Shown here: positions 54,928-64,000 of the stretch, in pieces | Position numbering within the stretch: the first letter of the stretch is position 1 | Layout: each line of letters starts with the position of its first letter | Assembly (NCBI GenBank): GCA_022841325.1 | Contig: JALHRS010000018.1 | Coordinates: forward strand, 1 to 64,000 | From: Lysobacterales bacterium | Lineage (GTDB): Bacteria; Pseudomonadota; Gammaproteobacteria; Xanthomonadales; SZUA-5 | DNA length: 64,000 nt | Reading direction: 5' to 3' | Made by a program: the position numbers and the translations under genes | The notes under the pieces: generated by a model | Database searches by the model: none | What the model was told of the DNA's origin: nothing | The model's input: the letters and a program-made list of their open reading frames with translations, nothing else

Positions 54928-56085
54928 ATGCGTACCGAAGATCCGATCCAGTCCGATTCGCCCTGGCATGGCTCCTGGCTGTCGCCGCTGAATCTGGCTG
55001 CCTACATCACCTGGCTGGCGGTGATGCTGCAATCCATCCGCTGGAACCGCCTGACCGACGGCGATCCGGGGCAATGGGCGGGCCTGGGCGCCTTGACCGG
55101 CGTGCTGGTCGTTTATGTGCTCGGCAGCCTGCTGGCCCAGGCACGACAGCAACGCCGTGAGCGGATTCTGGTGCTGATGCAGGCGGCCCTCGTGCTGCTG
55201 GCCAGCTGGTACCTGCGCAATGGTGGTCCAGCGATCCTGTTGATCATCGTTGCCGGACAGGTGGTCGCGCTGTGGCCGCGCGCGCAGGCCATCCTGATCA
55301 TGTTGCTGTGCAATCTGCTGCTGCTGGCGATCTGGATCCAGGGCATCTCCTGGACGAGCGCCCTGCTGTCGCTGCTGCCGATGATGGGTTTTCAGACCTT
55401 TGCGGCGCTTACCGTGCACTACGCCATGAATGCCGAAACAGCACGCGAGCAGCTGGCGCAGACCCACGCCCAGCTGCTGGTGACCCAGCAGTTGCTGGAG
55501 GACAGCGCCCGCAGCGGCGAACGCCTGCGACTGTCGCGCGAACTGCACGATGTCGCCGGCCACAAGCTCACCGCCTTGAAACTCAATCTGCGACTGCTGC
55601 AGCGCGATCCGGCGCTCGCCGACCGGGAAGAGGTCAAGGTCTCGGCGACCCTGGCCGATGAGTTGCTGGCCGATATCCGCGCCGTCGTCAGCGAGCTGCG
55701 CAAGCACGACGGCATCGATCTGCCCGCGGCGATCACCACCCTGACCCAGCAGATTCCCGGCACCCGCTTTCAACTGGACATCGATCCAGCGCTGCGCGTG
55801 GCCGATCTCGACAGCGCCGAAATCCTGCTGCGCTGCGCCCAGGAAGGCATCACCAATGCGCTGCGGCATGGCCGTGCCAATGAAATCCAGGTGCGTTGCC
55901 GGCGCGTCGGGGAGCGCATCGAACTGGCGGTACGCAATGACGGCGCCACGCTCAAGACCATCCACTTCGGCAACGGTCTGCGCGGCATGCGCGAGCGTCT
56001 GGCCGGGGCCGGCGGCGAACTCTCGCTGACCGCGCTCAGCGGCGGTGGTGCATTGCTGACCGCGGCGCTGCCTGCCCATGGCTGA
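54928..56085 (+). CDS. Sensor histidine kinase (HisKA_3/NarL-LiaS type)
   Basis: LRLSRELHDVAGHKLTALKLNLRLL; AQEGITNALRHGRANEI; TIHFGNGLRGMRERL. Confidence 0.93.
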   Translation: MRTEDPIQSDSPWHGSWLSPLNLAAYITWLAVMLQSIRWNRLTDGDPGQWAGLGALTGVLVVYVLGSLLAQARQQRRERILVLMQAALVLLASWYLRNGGPAILLIIVAGQVVALWPRAQAILIMLLCNLLLLAIWIQGISWTSALLSLLPMMGFQTFAALTVHYAMNAETAREQLAQTHAQLLVTQQLLEDSARSGERLRLSRELHDVAGHKLTALKLNLRLLQRDPALADREEVKVSATLADELLADIRAVVSELRKHDGIDLPAAITTLTQQIPGTRFQLDIDPALRVADLDSAEILLRCAQEGITNALRHGRANEIQVRCRRVGERIELAVRNDGATLKTIHFGNGLRGMRERLAGAGGELSLTALSGGGALLTAALPAHG

Positions 56086-56731
56086 GTCGCTGCCGGCGAG
56101 CAACATCCGCATCGCCCTGGTCGACGATCAGGCCCTGGTGCTGAAAGGGCTGTCGGCGCTGCTGAATGGCCTGGCCGGCATCGAGATCGCACTCGAAGCC
56201 AGCGATGGCGAGCAGCTGCTGAGCGCGCTGCCGCAGCGGCCGGTGGACGTCATCGTCAGCGATATCCGCATGCCCGGCGTCGGTGGCATCGAGTTGATCG
56301 ACCGCTTGCGCGAGGCCGGAAACGCCACGCCGGTGATCCTGCTGACGACCTTCGACGACAGCGAGTTGATGCTGGCCGCCGTGGAAGCCGGGGCTCAGGG
56401 TTTCCTGCTGAAGGATGCTTCGCCCGAGGATCTGGCCGAAGCCATCGTCAAGGTCGCCAGCGGCGACACCCTGCTGCAGCCGGTGAGCCTCGGCCCGGTG
56501 CGGGCGCTGCGTCGTCCCGAAGCGCACATCGGCCCCAGGCTGCATCTGACCGAGCGTGAGGCCAGCATTCTCAGGCTGGTGGCCGGCGGCTATTCCAACA
56601 AGGAAATCGGCCGCTCGCTGCATCTGTCCGAGGGCACCGTCAAGAACTACGTGTCCGACATTCTGGTGAAACTGGACTGCCGCGACCGCACCCACGCCGT
56701 GCTCAAGGCCATCACCCAGAGGCTGTTGTAG
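56078..56731 (+). CDS. LuxR/NarL-family response regulator
   Basis: RIALVDDQALVLKGLSALL; VIVSDIRMPGVGGIEL; LTEREASILRLVAGGYSNKEIGRSLHLSEGTVKNYVS; overlaps kinase. Confidence 0.95.
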   Translation: MAESLPASNIRIALVDDQALVLKGLSALLNGLAGIEIALEASDGEQLLSALPQRPVDVIVSDIRMPGVGGIELIDRLREAGNATPVILLTTFDDSELMLAAVEAGAQGFLLKDASPEDLAEAIVKVASGDTLLQPVSLGPVRALRRPEAHIGPRLHLTEREASILRLVAGGYSNKEIGRSLHLSEGTVKNYVSDILVKLDCRDRTHAVLKAITQRLL

Positions 56732-58079: not shown

Positions 58080-58397
58080 TCAGGGCTTCTTCAGCGCCCA
58101 GCCCGAGCACCAGCCCTTCGGGTGGACGGAGAAACCGGGGAAGATCGCGCAAGCACCCGTATCGGCAGTGAAGAACTGGCAATTGGCGCAATCGCTGCCG
58201 GCCTTGAACATCGGGTTCTTCACCGTGCTTGCGTCTTCGACATAGTTCAGAGCCTTGGCCTGGGCATTGCTGAGCGGCAGTGGCGGCAGGGCGGCCTGGG
58301 CCGGTCGCGTGACCATGGTGGCGAGCAGCGGCAGGGCACTGGCGGCAGCAGCAGTCTGCATCAGAAAGCGGCGGCGGGTGGCATCGTGTTCACTCAT
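58080..58397 (-). CDS. High-potential iron-sulfur protein (HiPIP) with Tat signal
   Basis: RRRFLMQTAAAASALPLLATMV; NYVEDASTVKNPMFKAGSDCANCQFFTADTGACAIFPGFSVHPKGWCSGWALKKP. Confidence 0.95.
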   Translation of the reverse strand: MSEHDATRRRFLMQTAAAASALPLLATMVTRPAQAALPPLPLSNAQAKALNYVEDASTVKNPMFKAGSDCANCQFFTADTGACAIFPGFSVHPKGWCSGWALKKP

Positions 58398-58473
58398 GGC
58401 TGGAGCTCCTGGTAGTTGGCATCAGACTAGGCGTCGTCCGGCCCCGAGGAGAATGACCCGGGTCAAGCGCAAC

Positions 58474-60426
58474 TCATCTGGCCGCCGCGTGGAAAGCGTC
58501 GGTAAAGCACGCCTCGGCGCTGAGTCCGTGGGTCAGAAAGTCGGGAACCGCGTGTTCCACCATCTGCACCGAGCCGCAGACGTACACGTCTACACCCCTG
58601 AGGTCAGGGAAATCGGTCAGCACGGCTTCATGCACCAGCCCGGTGCGGCCGCGCCATTCGAGCGCCGATTCGGGCTCCGACAGCACGGCCACCACGCTGA
58701 AGTTGGAATGCTGCTGTTGCCACGTCTCGGCCAGCTCCAGCAAATAGCAGTCGCTCGGCTCCCTGACGCCCCAATACAGCACCATGCGCCGAGCGATGCC
58801 GCGATGAAAAGCGTCTTCGAGGATGCTCTTGATCGGCGCGAATCCGGTGGCACCGGCGATCAACAGCAGGGGACGGCTGGCGCTGGCCGCAATCGCGGGC
58901 GTCTCGCCTTGATCGTCCCCGGGTGAGCGCAGGCGCGGATGAGTGAAGACCGTACCGCAGGGCCCCTCGAAACGCACTTCATCGCCGACCTGCATCCCTT
59001 CGAACACGTGGGTGGTGTAGCGGCCGCCCGGAATCCGGCGGACATGCAGCTCGATCAGGACATTGTCATGGGGCGCGTTGGCAAAGGAAAAGGCCCTGCG
59101 GGCACCGTCTTCGAGGATGATGTTGAGGTACTGGCCAGCGCCGAACTCCAGGCTCTGCCCGGTGGGCAGGGCCAGCCACACGCGCATCACCGCCGGGCCC
59201 AGTTTCTCCATGCGCTGCACCCGCGCGGTGTACTCAGGCATGGCGCTGCTACCGTCGGAATCCAGGCTCGGCACAGGCACCTCGATCTCCACGTCTTCCA
59301 GCGGCATGGCGCAGCACATCAGGGCCTGGCCCTCGGCGCGTTGCTCGGCGCTCAGCACCGCCGGCTGGAACGGGCCCTGGTCGACCCGACCGTTGAGCAC
59401 GGTACACAGGCACAGACCGCAGCCGCCGTTGCGGCATTCGTAGGGCAGGCTCAGCCCGGCGCGCAGGCCCGCTTCCAGCACCGTCTCCCCGGGCCGCAGC
59501 ATGACCTCGCAAGCGCCCGGATGCATCTGCATGCGCAGTTGCCCCACCGCAGAGGGTCGACGCGCCGCCAGCCACGGCAGGGCAGCCAGCAGCCCGGTGA
59601 GGGCCGTCACCAGCGCCCATACCGCGGATGCCGGCCAGGCATCGAGCAGCGGATAGATCGGCAGAATCAGCCAGTCCAGTGCCACCGACTGTACCTCGCT
59701 GGCCAGATCCGCGGCGCCGCCCTGGCTGAGCACCGGCTGCAGCAGGGCCAGCACCAGCAACATCGCCGACACGCCGAGCGCGATGGGCCGCGGCGGCTGC
59801 GTCTGCGCCTTGGGTACGCGCTGCACATGCACCCACATCAACAGCAGCACCAGCAGGGGCACGCCGATGTGGATGAAGGACAGCAGCGAGAACAATCGGT
59901 CGTTGACGCTTTCCGGGTACATGAAGTTGCGGATCAGGGCGCCGCCAAAAGTCGGCAGCCAGTCCAACCATTCAAAGCTGGCCACGGTGACGTATTGAGC
60001 CAGTCGATCCCACGGCAGCATGTAGCCGTTGATGCCCGAGACATAGACCAGCCAGATCAGGGCAATGCCGGTGAGCCAGGAGAAACTGCGGAAACCGCGC
60101 AGCCGGTCGAAAGCGAAATAGCGCAGCGCGTGCAGCAGCATCAGCAGCACCATGGCATCGGAGGCATGGCGATGCATGCTGCGCAGCAGGCCGCCGGCGT
60201 ACCACTGGCGGTGCGTCAGCGCTTCCACCGACTGGTAGGCGCCAACCACGCTGGTATCGAAGAACGCATACAGGTAAAGGCCGCTACCGGCGACGATCCA
60301 GAACAGGAAGAAGCAGATCGAACCCAGGTGATAGAAGGGATTCAGGCGATCGCCGAAGGCACGATTGAACAGCGCTTCGGCCTGCATGAATCCGCCGCGC
60401 AGCAGCGACTGCAGCAGCGCGATCAT
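58474..60426 (-). CDS. Cytochrome b (N-terminal type) fused to [2Fe-2S] ferredoxin and FNR-like NAD(P)H:flavin oxidoreductase
   Basis: Two H-x13-H pairs (HRHASDAMVLLMLLH; HIGVPLLVLLLMWVH); CRNGGCGLC..C ferredoxin; RAFSFAN, LLLIAGATGFAPIKSILED. Confidence 0.9.
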   Translation of the reverse strand: MIALLQSLLRGGFMQAEALFNRAFGDRLNPFYHLGSICFFLFWIVAGSGLYLYAFFDTSVVGAYQSVEALTHRQWYAGGLLRSMHRHASDAMVLLMLLHALRYFAFDRLRGFRSFSWLTGIALIWLVYVSGINGYMLPWDRLAQYVTVASFEWLDWLPTFGGALIRNFMYPESVNDRLFSLLSFIHIGVPLLVLLLMWVHVQRVPKAQTQPPRPIALGVSAMLLVLALLQPVLSQGGAADLASEVQSVALDWLILPIYPLLDAWPASAVWALVTALTGLLAALPWLAARRPSAVGQLRMQMHPGACEVMLRPGETVLEAGLRAGLSLPYECRNGGCGLCLCTVLNGRVDQGPFQPAVLSAEQRAEGQALMCCAMPLEDVEIEVPVPSLDSDGSSAMPEYTARVQRMEKLGPAVMRVWLALPTGQSLEFGAGQYLNIILEDGARRAFSFANAPHDNVLIELHVRRIPGGRYTTHVFEGMQVGDEVRFEGPCGTVFTHPRLRSPGDDQGETPAIAASASRPLLLIAGATGFAPIKSILEDAFHRGIARRMVLYWGVREPSDCYLLELAETWQQQHSNFSVVAVLSEPESALEWRGRTGLVHEAVLTDFPDLRGVDVYVCGSVQMVEHAVPDFLTHGLSAEACFTDAFHAAAR

Positions 60427-62012
60427 GCGGCCTCGGCGCCTGCAGGCTGCGGCTGCCGCATTGCACGCCACACCACCAGCACAAAGAGCAGACCGCCGAT
60501 GATGGCAATCAGGCCGCCCAGGCCCATCAGGCCCATGCCGGCGATCTCGGCCTTGGTGCGCAGCACCTGTTCGGCGCCGGCGACCTTGCGCTGCACGCCA
60601 TAGCCACCGGACCAGACCAGACCGACGATATGCATCAACTGACCGGCGCCGTAGAGCAGCGGTTGCCAGCGCGCCAGTCGCCCAGCCGGCGCCCGGTAAC
60701 CCAGCCGCGGCAGCAGCAGGTAGACCAGACCCATCAAGGCCAGGGTCACACCAACGATGCAGCCATGGTAATGGGCCGGGATCTTGACGTTGCTACCGCT
60801 GATGAACACGCCGATCAGGCCGCCTGCGGCAAACAGGGCCATCGAGGCCATCAGCGCCGCGTGCAATGGCCGCTGCACGGCGTCCATGACACCCTCCCGG
60901 CGGGCCAGACCGACCAGCACCGCCAGCCCGATCGGCACGATGGAGACACCACCGCCCAGACGCATGACCCAGGTGTGCAGATTGCGATGCTCCACCGAAG
61001 CCACATCGTGCGCCAGATAGGCATAGGGCGTCACGAAGACGCTCACCAGCGCCAGGGCCAGCAACAGCAGGGCCACCCGCGGGCTCAGGGGGATGCGTGC
61101 ACCGACGGCGCTGGCCAGCCACAGCCAGCCCACCAGCATCAACAGCGTCCACGAGAACTGCAGCGCATGGCCGCCGCCCCAGAACAGGATCTCGTAATAG
61201 GCCTTGCCATCCAGGCCAGCGGGCGTCAGCCACAGCGAGGCAGCGAAAGCCAGCACCGCCACGGCGGTTGAAATGGCGGCGGCGTTGAGGCCAAAGCGCA
61301 GCACGCCGCTGCCGTCGAAGTCCAGACCGAGCTGCGGCGCGGCCGCCAGACTGCGCAGCACCAGCAGACCTGCACCCAGCGCAAACACCGCCAGTCCAGA
61401 CAGAAACACCGGCCCGTCCAGTACCGGAATGTAGTTGGCCATGATCGGTGCGCCGGTATCGACAAAGGGTGCCAGCGCCATCAGCAGGCTACCGGCGGCC
61501 GCCAGCGCCAACGCGCTCCAGGCCCAGCGCAGGCCCAGCGGTCGACTGATCAGGCTCCACAACATGCCACCCAGCGCCACGAACCAGACCAGTACCGAGA
61601 GATCGACATGGACCACCAGCGCGACGCGGAAGAAGTCAGCCACCGGGAACCAGCGATTCACACCGGGTGTGCGCGACACCACCAGCAGCAGCGAGTAGAT
61701 GCCGGAGCCGATCAGCGCCGCCATCCCCAGCCACAACCAGGCACGCGCCAGCGCCTGGCGGGCGTCGCTGGCGATGCTCAACCGGTAGGGGCCGGGCTCG
61801 CAGGTGTGGACTGCAGACGAGGGCGCCAGGGCGCGAGGGCGCGAGGGCAAGTGAATGGCAGGCTGCCGGACCAGATTGGCGGCCAAGGTCTCAGCGTCGG
61901 CTCGGCCACCGCCAAGATCGCCACGATGACCCACCAGAAGCCCCGCCTGCGCAAGGCTGCTGTTCACCTGCCCTCGCGCCCTCGCGCCTTCGTGCTTTCG
62001 TACTGTGCTCAT
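60423..62012 (-). CDS. Heme-copper oxidase subunit I-like protein (cbb3/NOR-like divergent group); start uncertain
   Basis: VVHVDLSVLVWF, FWGGGHALQFSWTLLML, PAHYHGCIVGVTLALMGLVYLLLP, ~12 TMs; first ~70 codons from ATG 62012 look repeat-derived. Confidence 0.8.
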   Translation of the reverse strand: MSTVRKHEGARARGQVNSSLAQAGLLVGHRGDLGGGRADAETLAANLVRQPAIHLPSRPRALAPSSAVHTCEPGPYRLSIASDARQALARAWLWLGMAALIGSGIYSLLLVVSRTPGVNRWFPVADFFRVALVVHVDLSVLVWFVALGGMLWSLISRPLGLRWAWSALALAAAGSLLMALAPFVDTGAPIMANYIPVLDGPVFLSGLAVFALGAGLLVLRSLAAAPQLGLDFDGSGVLRFGLNAAAISTAVAVLAFAASLWLTPAGLDGKAYYEILFWGGGHALQFSWTLLMLVGWLWLASAVGARIPLSPRVALLLLALALVSVFVTPYAYLAHDVASVEHRNLHTWVMRLGGGVSIVPIGLAVLVGLARREGVMDAVQRPLHAALMASMALFAAGGLIGVFISGSNVKIPAHYHGCIVGVTLALMGLVYLLLPRLGYRAPAGRLARWQPLLYGAGQLMHIVGLVWSGGYGVQRKVAGAEQVLRTKAEIAGMGLMGLGGLIAIIGGLLFVLVVWRAMRQPQPAGAEAA

Positions 62013-62515
62013 CTCAGCGTGATCCGTTTGTCGGCGGAGTCGAAATCGATGACCAGGATCTCGGCCGGCACCAGTTCGATCTCGCGCTCCAGGGTGTAGT
62101 CAAACCCGTCCGTTCGGGCGTTGTCCTTCAGGCGTACCGCGATCCGATGGACCCCGGCGTCGACCTCGATGCGCCGGTAGATGGCGGCCGGGCCATCGCT
62201 GGACAGCCCCGATGCGGAGGCGATCTGGCGGTGCGCCAGTACCCCGTCCACATCCACCTCCACGGTCAGTGGCGAGCGCTCGCGCGGACAGCGACTCGGC
62301 GCGCGCATGTTCGGTGGCAGCCTGGCCAGTTCCTCGGGGGTCTGTTGCACGCATTCGCCCAGCAGCTGGGCCTGGTGAACCAGACTCAGCTTGATCACCG
62401 CCTGATCTGGCGCCAGGTGCTGGTACACCGGCCATCTTGAGAACACCCCGATGACGCCGGCCAGCGCGGCATACAGCAGGATCTGTCCGATCCAGAGCTT
62501 GAGTTTCTCGGTCAT
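62009..62515 (-). CDS. Small membrane-anchored hypothetical protein in respiratory cluster
   Basis: MTEKLKLWIGQILLYAALAGVIGVFSRWPVYQHLAPDQAVIKLSLVHQ; stop overlaps ATG 62012 (ATGA). Confidence 0.75.
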   Translation of the reverse strand: MTEKLKLWIGQILLYAALAGVIGVFSRWPVYQHLAPDQAVIKLSLVHQAQLLGECVQQTPEELARLPPNMRAPSRCPRERSPLTVEVDVDGVLAHRQIASASGLSSDGPAAIYRRIEVDAGVHRIAVRLKDNARTDGFDYTLEREIELVPAEILVIDFDSADKRITLR

Positions 62516-62666
62516 GTCGCGCCCATCTGCCACTCCAGCCAGGGTTGCTCAGCTTGTACAGCAGGGGATCGCGGCAGTTTGCAGACCTTCCGGTGGTCGC
62601 TGCCAAACCCGCAAGCCACTGACAGTGATCAGACCTGAACCGGCCCGGCGCCGTCATTGACGTGGG

Positions 62667-64000
62667 TCAGGCGGGCAGGTCACCGGCGTGTTGCCGGCCT
62701 TGCGGCGGCAACCGAAGCCGCCGCAACAACTGCAGGGCGGCTGCGCTCACCCGGGCTTCCTCGCCCGCTCCGGCCTGCAGCATCTGCCAGCGCGTCTTCG
62801 GCACGTTCGCGCGCAGATGCGGCTCGCGCTGTCCGTTCAGCCGCTGCGCGGTCAGCGCTTCGCCCCATCGGAAGGCGCAGCCGCCGGATGGGCAGCCAAC
62901 GATCAGTACGCCCGCAGCCCCGGCACGCAGCGCGTACTCGACGAAGGCCGGCGGCATCTGGCCGATGCACAACAAGCTGAGCGCAATCAGGCCGGGCGCG
63001 GTGACGCGGCCAAGATCGGCGCCATGCTCACAGCCGTAGACGACGATGGCCGGTTCGGTGTGGTCGGCCAGCGCCGTCTCCAGTTGCCGGCGCAGGGCGG
63101 CGATGGTCTGCTGCGGCATGTCGATGCCGCTGACCAGCAGCTCGGTGGAACGAAACGGCGTGGCCGACGGACAGGACCCGGCGCAAATGCCGCAACTGGC
63201 ACAGCGATCTGCAGCAACCACGGCGATCTGTCGCCCCGCTTTGCCGTTGGGGTGGGGCTCCAGCGTGATCGCGGCATAGGGACAGTCCGCGACACAACGC
63301 TGACAGCCGTTGCAGTTGTCGGCGTCGACCACCGCCACCGGCGGTGGCGCCTGCGACCGTAGCGGCAACAGCAGCAGCAACAGCAGCATCGCGCCCATCA
63401 CTGCCCAGGTCAGCGCCGGCCCCCAGGCCTCAGCCAGGGGCAGCCAGTGCAGCAGCCACCAGTCCAGCGGCAGGGCTGCAGGCACCGAGCCCAGATCGGC
63501 AGGCGGCAGGCTCAGGATCGGCCGTGCCAGGGCCAGGACTCCGAGGCAAGACAGCAGCGCCAGGGCCAGCGCCCGCGGCGGCCACAACTGCGGTCGGGTG
63601 ATCCGCTGCAGATGAAACCACAGGGCAAACAGCATCAGCAGCGGCACGCCCAGATGCACGAAGATCAGCAGGCTGAACAGGCGGTCGTTGACCGCTTCCG
63701 GGGTCAGGAAATTGCGCGACAGGGAGGTCGGGAACAGCGGCAGTGCGTCCAGCAGTTCGGCGCTGGCGATGGCCGAGTATTGCCCGAGTTGATCCCAGGC
63801 CAGCCAGAAACCACCAACGCCGCTGAGATAGACCAGCGGCAGCAGCACCAGACCGGTCAGCCAGCTCAGGCGGCGAAAGCGCGTGTACCGCCCGAGCACC
63901 GCCTCGCGCAGCAGATGCAGCCACACCGACAGCAGAAACAGATCGGCGGCGTAACGATGCAGGCTGCGCAACCAGCTACCCGGTGGCTGTGCCGACAAGC
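62667..64000 (-). CDS. Cytochrome b fused to two [4Fe-4S] clusters and MvhD/FlpD-like domain; 5' end truncated by window
   Basis: H-x13-H pairs (HRYAADLFLLSVWLH; HLGVPLLMLFALWFH); CNGCQRCVADCP, CASCGICAGSCP; VYGCEHGADLG..GCPSGGCAFRWGEALTAQR. Confidence 0.88.
   Translation of the reverse strand, partial: LSAQPPGSWLRSLHRYAADLFLLSVWLHLLREAVLGRYTRFRRLSWLTGLVLLPLVYLSGVGGFWLAWDQLGQYSAIASAELLDALPLFPTSLSRNFLTPEAVNDRLFSLLIFVHLGVPLLMLFALWFHLQRITRPQLWPPRALALALLSCLGVLALARPILSLPPADLGSVPAALPLDWWLLHWLPLAEAWGPALTWAVMGAMLLLLLLLPLRSQAPPPVAVVDADNCNGCQRCVADCPYAAITLEPHPNGKAGRQIAVVAADRCASCGICAGSCPSATPFRSTELLVSGIDMPQQTIAALRRQLETALADHTEPAIVVYGCEHGADLGRVTAPGLIALSLLCIGQMPPAFVEYALRAGAAGVLIVGCPSGGCAFRWGEALTAQRLNGQREPHLRANVPKTRWQMLQAGAGEEARVSAAALQLLRRLRLPPQGRQHAGDLPA

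Follow-up and report, generated by a model that had tools for sequence, protein, structure and literature searches.

Which enzyme is served by a group of genes that joins two unusual cytochrome b fusions to a protein of heme-copper fold? This question is raised by one end of a 64,000 nt stretch of DNA from a Lysobacterales bacterium (genome G000), which comprises positions 1-64000 of the 82-kb contig C18 and is called the window hereafter. Two cytochrome b proteins (CB1 and CB2) are encoded there together with a heme-copper subunit (HCOb), a small anchored protein and a HiPIP. An original prediction, made from the sequence of the window, held that these genes specify an undescribed respiratory complex in which the HCOb-like subunit is the terminal reductase. 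Our analysis indicates instead that the cluster is probably the downstream half of an operon for an eNOR-type nitric oxide (NO) reductase, with CB1 and CB2 serving as parallel electron inputs.

All of the predicted minus-strand genes are present, and Pfam matches confirmed the domains that had been assigned to them. Five colinear genes, with deoC next to them, have the following features.

62667..64000, continuing past the window, minus strand: CB1, a cytochrome b with four transmembrane (TM) helices resembling b6, two [4Fe-4S] clusters and an FlpD/MvhD domain (PF00033, PF12838, PF02662)
62009..62533, minus strand: small membrane-anchored protein, predicted to have one TM helix and a periplasmic beta-sandwich (AlphaFold2 pLDDT 95.9)
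60423..61850, minus strand: HCOb, heme-copper fold (PF00115, COX1)
58474..60426, minus strand: CB2, a cytochrome b with a plant-type [2Fe-2S], FAD and NAD(P) module similar to BenC/FNR (PF00033; PF00111, Fer2; PF00970, FAD_binding_6; PF00175, NAD_binding_1)
58080..58397, minus strand: HiPIP with a Tat-like leader (PF01355, E = 5e-18)

The end of the window bisects this operon. The CB1 start lies beyond it, near window coordinate 64178, and the protein is 503 amino acids (aa) long in all, while the catalytic half lies upstream, past 64000. A search for further partners there had been suggested, and extension along the contig (locus L003 = C18:57001-77000) revealed them. In full, the operon reads small helix protein (similar to subunit IIa of ba3 oxidases), CuA subunit II, eNOR subunit I, heme O synthase and SCO, followed by CB1, the small anchored protein, HCOb, CB2 and HiPIP. 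The heme A synthase gene CtaA is divergent and lies upstream of the operon.

Subunit I is a 567 aa heme-copper protein that keeps all of its ligands, namely the TM2 His, the TM6 His, the TM7 His-His pair and the TM10 HxH. Its TM6 reads GHSSQQINV, with Gln at position H+4 in place of the cross-linked Tyr of the active site. Gln is present at H+4 in 73 of 75 loci (GH[SP][SA]QQ, occurring as GHSSQQ, GHPSQQ or GHSAQQ), whereas B-type O2 reductases in the same alignment have Tyr, as in GHPLVYFW. By inspection, subunit I also has no Tyr at the TM7 position that is used by the C family. The residue at the diagnostic position is Gln in eNOR, Asn in sNOR, Asp in gNOR and Glu in cNOR/qNOR (PMC8756737), and eNOR is listed among the biochemically characterised NO reductases (PMC11388526). 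Furthermore, the CuA motif C-x3-C-x3-H-x2-M is present in 71 of 71 subunits II, and the marks of cNOR/qNOR (the Glu of HxWVE in TM6 and GHH[FY][FY]WIG in TM7) are absent from both heme-copper subunits of the operon and present in NorB controls. By these residues, the catalytic core fits eNOR, a known NO reductase family.

Enzymes of the eNOR type were noted previously in beta- and gammaproteobacteria (PMC8756737; PMC10734462), and the eNOR taxa in the first of these reports include Thermus and other Chloroflexi. The nearest named relatives of subunit I are plasmid genes of Thermus and Thermomicrobium, and the related Thermus plasmid genes sit in a nitrite reductase neighbourhood. The present operon shares with eNOR the His ligands and the Gln-for-Tyr replacement in subunit I, a CuA subunit II directly upstream, and denitrifying hosts that carry nirS or nirK. 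It differs in its linked CtaB and SCO genes, one or two cytochrome b fusions, anchored beta-sandwich protein and CuB-less paralogue; the Thermus and Thermomicrobium relatives, unlike this cluster, have no cytochrome b genes. The catalytic subunit was labelled sNOR at first, a name that was dropped when the residue test gave Gln rather than Asn. The sNOR operon of ammonia oxidizers (norSY-senC-orf1) likewise unites a B-type subunit I, a CuA subunit II and SCO/SenC (PMC4940428; PMC3772326). It differs in its diagnostic residue, which is Asn (PMC8756737, table A4), and no cytochrome b fusions are listed for the operon of these bacteria.

The distribution of the operon links it to denitrification. 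Of 50 cluster genomes, 42 encode NirS, and the remaining eight each have a NirK match (five above the curated cut-off); the background, scored with a stricter threshold than that used for cluster genomes, is 33 of 185 genomes sampled evenly across the class. Within this class sample, 13 of the 16 genomes with HCOb are NirS-positive (p = 7e-9), as are 10 of the 12 with eNOR (p = 5e-7), the genomes in both comparisons not being independent. We detected cNOR/qNOR with a DNA pattern for the TM7 motif GHH[FY][FY]WIG; ten pattern loci that were checked proved to be NorB, most with HLWVEGVWE. All 18 NirS genomes that lack HCOb contain this motif, compared with just 3 of 44 cluster genomes, and the DNA pattern search found none in the genome studied here, which has NirS. 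Among 33 NirS genomes, eNOR is present in 9 of the 10 that lack the motif and in 1 of the 23 that have it (Fisher p = 2.5e-6, again for genomes that are not independent). The single motif-negative NirS genome without eNOR (G099) is 73% complete. This mutual exclusion suggests that the operon occupies the place of the usual NO reductase.

The same data bear on whether the operon might encode a B-type terminal O2 reductase, with cytochrome b partners linked to NAD(P)H, for growth at low O2. Relatives are automatically annotated as subunit I of ‘cbb3-type’ or ‘b(o/a)3-type’ enzymes, ba3/B-type oxidases are the closest solved structures, B-family enzymes are capable of reducing both O2 and NO, and the related sNOR has been argued to act as a high-affinity oxidase (PMC6967387). 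Nevertheless, the cross-linked Tyr of B-type O2 reductases is replaced in subunit I by the Gln found at nearly all loci, the association with NirS or NirK is strong, cNOR/qNOR and this operon exclude each other, and A-type and cbb3-type oxidases are already present in the same genome. We therefore consider an O2 reductase quite unlikely.

If an NO reductase is the better description, what is the role of the second heme-copper subunit? HCOb is a probable CuB-less paralogue of eNOR subunit I, as judged by profile scores of 111-118 bits with eNOR subunits vs 17-54 bits with B-type O2 reductases. A PDB structure search with its AlphaFold2 model (pLDDT 92.1) returns the heme-copper oxidase fold. 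The heme His of TM2 and TM10 show little or no variation across 82 homologues, and the same holds for the TM6 His. The TM7 His-His pair that binds CuB is lost, with T-P/Y-A in that region; just 14 of the 82 have two adjacent His at any point of the region, and 76 have Phe at H+4. HCOb is also missing from clusters L045 and L047 and from the Defluviimonas plasmid cluster L129. Because the CuB pair has been lost, some clusters dispense with HCOb, and a complete CuA/heme-CuB reductase is encoded in the same operon, HCOb is unlikely to be the terminal reductase that it was originally taken to be. An electron-transfer or structural role would be compatible with these features.

Assignment of HCOb to gNOR, suggested by an ‘AHD’ in TM7, was rejected: this Asp varies among homologues and falls outside the CuB pair in the alignment, and the active-site Asp and metal site of gNOR are both lacking. 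Stand-alone HCOb genes reside beside an rpoH-like sigma factor (L033 and L035, by inspection), beside a CtaB-like gene (L041) and inside nir/nap-like regions (L036 and L040). A search of plasmids with HCOb gave no match. In the NirS-positive genome G061, a 907-aa open frame (C2:1049110-1050258, L046) contains a distant HCOb-like domain and is possibly a further heme-copper fusion. Contigs C241 and C320 of the genome studied here carry pieces of an additional eNOR subunit I (84% identical) and of an additional HCOb (59%), which may belong to another organism because the assembly has 6% contamination.

CB1 and CB2 are the proposed electron inputs. As predicted originally, each cytochrome b contains two H-x13-H pairs (H85/H99 and H186/H200 in CB1, H207/H221 and H308/H322 in CB2, by open reading frame numbering). 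All four heme His are invariant across 76 CB1 homologues, and three of four across 71 CB2 homologues, with H207 retained in 70. Also conserved are the eight cubane Cys and four FlpD Cys of the CB1 sequences and the four [2Fe-2S] Cys of the CB2 sequences. In these alignments, ligand conservation is far above chance. Both proteins resemble the N-terminal four-helix half of cytochrome b6 or bc1 cytochrome b, including its four heme His. They differ in that neither the C-terminal Qo half (PF00032) nor a Rieske protein was matched among the scanned cluster proteins. A classical Q-cycle is less likely for this reason, although quinone could still react at the b hemes.

The soluble modules likewise have known counterparts. 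The CB1 tail places two [4Fe-4S] clusters and FlpD in the same order as HdrA2 positions 564-764 but is fused to a diheme cytochrome b. Hdr partners (HdrA/B/C) were not noticed among the cluster genes, the whole genome not having been searched for hdr. The CB2 tail matches BenC/MmoC-type reductases in domain order and cofactor motifs; the module differs in being carried by a membrane cytochrome b rather than serving an oxygenase. In G156 (L030:2988-5534), the second cytochrome b is fused to flavodoxin, FAD_binding_1 and NAD_binding_1 domains, which replace the [2Fe-2S]-FNR module. By its domain content this protein is a diflavin reductase, an alternative NAD(P)H module that is unusual for a membrane protein.

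To determine how often the fusions occur together, we scanned named genomes with an HCOb profile and took the best 80 of more than 571 related loci, all from Pseudomonadota, mostly betaproteobacteria and many of them Comamonadaceae; Comamonas granuli, Simplicispira and Castellaniella are among the hosts. Among these loci and the class genomes, 71 loci had eNOR, HCOb and sufficient flank and could be scored, and the gene set proved to be conserved in dozens of beta- and gammaproteobacteria. Both fusions are present in 59 of the 71, CB1 only in six and CB2 only in six; five of the last six loci lie in genomes without CB1 anywhere. In the class sample, CB1 is found in 12 of 12 eNOR genomes, including the one studied here. 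The original prediction, which had named a lack of genomic co-conservation as grounds for its own rejection, thus survived in its view of a conserved respiratory gene set with two cytochrome b fusions that carry different cytoplasmic redox modules. A minimal version is present on the Defluviimonas plasmid NZ_CP156080.1 (L129), with the helix protein, CuA subunit, eNOR, cyoE, SCO, CB1 and the small anchored protein; a hemerythrin gene is also present, and molybdoenzyme genes are nearby.

On the arrangement that we favour, NirS would supply NO, and the heme/CuB site of eNOR subunit I would convert it to N2O with electrons delivered by way of periplasmic CuA. CB1 and CB2 would be diheme cytochrome b wires whose C-terminal modules face the cytoplasm, as the b6 fold and two further helices suggest. 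In CB2, where the FNR or diflavin module indicates NAD(P)H as the donor, electrons would pass to FAD and [2Fe-2S] and then to the b hemes. In CB1, the FlpD domain and two cubanes point to a ferredoxin- or Hdr-type donor, from which electrons would move through FlpD and both [4Fe-4S] clusters to the b hemes. From either protein they would cross the membrane to CuA, directly or via HCOb or a periplasmic carrier such as HiPIP. The inputs would be parallel, with either one able to suffice.

We favour parallel inputs over obligate confurcation because 12 clusters hold only one of the two recognised fusions and one cluster has a diflavin reductase in place of the FNR module. Confurcation within a single complex, with NAD(P)H and an Hdr-type donor both required and HCOb as terminal reductase, would account for the frequent linkage of the fusions, and modules of the FlpD and FNR kinds are characteristic of flavin-based systems. 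Against such a complex are the clusters with just one fusion and the five genomes devoid of CB1, together with the missing CuB ligands of HCOb and the clusters that lack HCOb altogether. This part of the original prediction is now highly improbable.

Electrons might also flow in the reverse direction, such that quinol is bifurcated, one electron passing to CuA, eNOR and NO and the other through the b hemes to NAD(P)+ or ferredoxin, which would be useful to chemolithotrophic denitrifiers. Diheme cytochrome b-type proteins can conduct in both directions, NO has strong oxidizing power, the FlpD and FNR modules of other systems work reversibly, genes for O2-independent ubiquinone synthesis are close by, and the names of some hosts mark them as lithotrophs (Ramlibacter lithotrophicus, L112). 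This proposal must contend with the undetected Qo half and Rieske protein, with named hosts that are mostly heterotrophic Comamonadaceae, and with the diflavin-reductase swap, which resembles modules that run outwards from NADPH. We regard it as unlikely.

Another reading assigns CB1, CB2 and HCOb to assembly or repair, through reduction of copper or heme, or treats them as separate NO-stress enzymes of the same regulon. The assembly factors CtaB, SCO and CtaA are indeed encoded at the same locus, and in other genomes HCOb stands alone near cox, rpoH and nir genes. The presence of CB1 in every eNOR genome of the class sample and the conservation of complete heme and Fe-S ligand sets, as expected for steady electron transfer, make this explanation very unlikely.

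Several points weigh against an eNOR operon with parallel inputs. The eNOR assignment was made from the diagnostic residue and the ligands. Genome G120 has eNOR or HCOb and neither NirS nor NirK, as do G083 and G116 with HCOb only. The 80 named loci were picked by HCOb similarity, and their genomes are not phylogenetically independent. HCOb is present in cNOR/qNOR-motif genomes that lack eNOR (G066, G067 and G154), which suggests that it has a wider role; it may have its own role in NO metabolism. Finally, NAD(P)H could feed another acceptor such as quinone, and the four heme His give no clue to the direction of electron flow.

NO reductases are thought to draw electrons from quinol or cytochrome c. 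An eNOR with its own NAD(P)H- and Fe-S-linked cytochrome b modules would have a third electron route and might contribute charge separation at a step that is commonly regarded as conserving no energy. A more far-reaching idea, which we find plausible but short of probable, is that a proteobacterial eNOR supercomplex acts as a direct NAD(P)H:NO oxidoreductase, in which cytoplasmic electrons from NAD(P)H (by CB2) and from a ferredoxin/Hdr-type donor (by CB1) reach CuA via cytochrome b and HCOb and bypass quinol/bc1, or that it bifurcates quinol and uses NO as the oxidant that drives NAD(P)+ reduction. The operon accounts for many nirS genomes that seemingly lack nor, whose genes of this type are currently annotated as ‘cbb3-type cytochrome c oxidase’, and it bears on which organisms make N2O. 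HCOb would represent a heme-copper fold retained despite loss of the copper site.

The claim that the complex is undescribed must be divided. Its catalytic core fits the described eNOR, and the input modules and HCOb appear to be new. A literature search found no description of cytochrome b-FlpD fusions, cytochrome b-FNR or diflavin fusions, or CuB-less subunits with eNOR, but it did not cover the main eNOR paper, so that ‘undescribed’ is unproven for these parts.

The small anchored protein, which accompanies CB1 or CB2, is conserved in 68 loci and in 71 of 71 scored eNOR and HCOb loci. It has two invariant Cys (C61 and C82) and no redox cofactor motif. Comparison of its predicted fold with the PDB gave no clear relative. 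A cupredoxin-like role was considered and set aside, since the predicted fold has no clear solved relative. The protein may be a scaffold. Downstream of its gene is a further feature, inserted between it and HCOb:

61817..62001, no strand assigned: inverted repeat with 48-nt arms, 81% complementary

In this operon 266 bp separate the stop codon of the small gene from the conserved HCOb domain, compared with about 95-125 bp in most homologues. Given the longer spacer and the inverted repeat, it is very likely that HCOb begins at about 61850 or later. Two ATGA overlaps had been taken as signs of tight coupling. The one at 60426/60423, where the CB2 ATG overlaps the HCOb stop codon, stands; the one at 62012/62009 is probably fortuitous, as the open reading frame that starts at 62012 runs through the repeat. 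A second inverted repeat is present in an operon spacer (L003:7211-7372), and the arms of the two are 47-48 nt.

The HiPIP has the PF01355 domain with four Cys and is possibly a periplasmic donor. It was originally seen as a core component but is rarely linked: among the best 80 of the more than 571 loci, it adjoins the cluster in only one other (L050) besides the present genome. A second HiPIP gene is located elsewhere in this genome (G000:C69:14400-14594). The neighbouring deoC is not conserved across loci.

Further upstream of the operon are a second SCO, DUF420, UbiD, an SCP2 protein similar to UbiT, and two U32 proteins similar to UbiU/UbiV, the UbiD, SCP2 and U32 genes lying ~4-9 kb upstream of the eNOR genes:

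L003:14612-19127 = C18:71612-76127, outside the window: UbiD, SCP2/UbiT-like and two U32 (UbiU/UbiV-like) genes

The ubiTUV genes constitute an O2-independent ubiquinone pathway (PMC11707229), and UbiD- and U32-like neighbours were seen again at a few other loci. At the other end, a histidine kinase (HisKA_3) and a LuxR-type response regulator are encoded as a pair at window positions 54928-56731, divergent from the end of the cluster.

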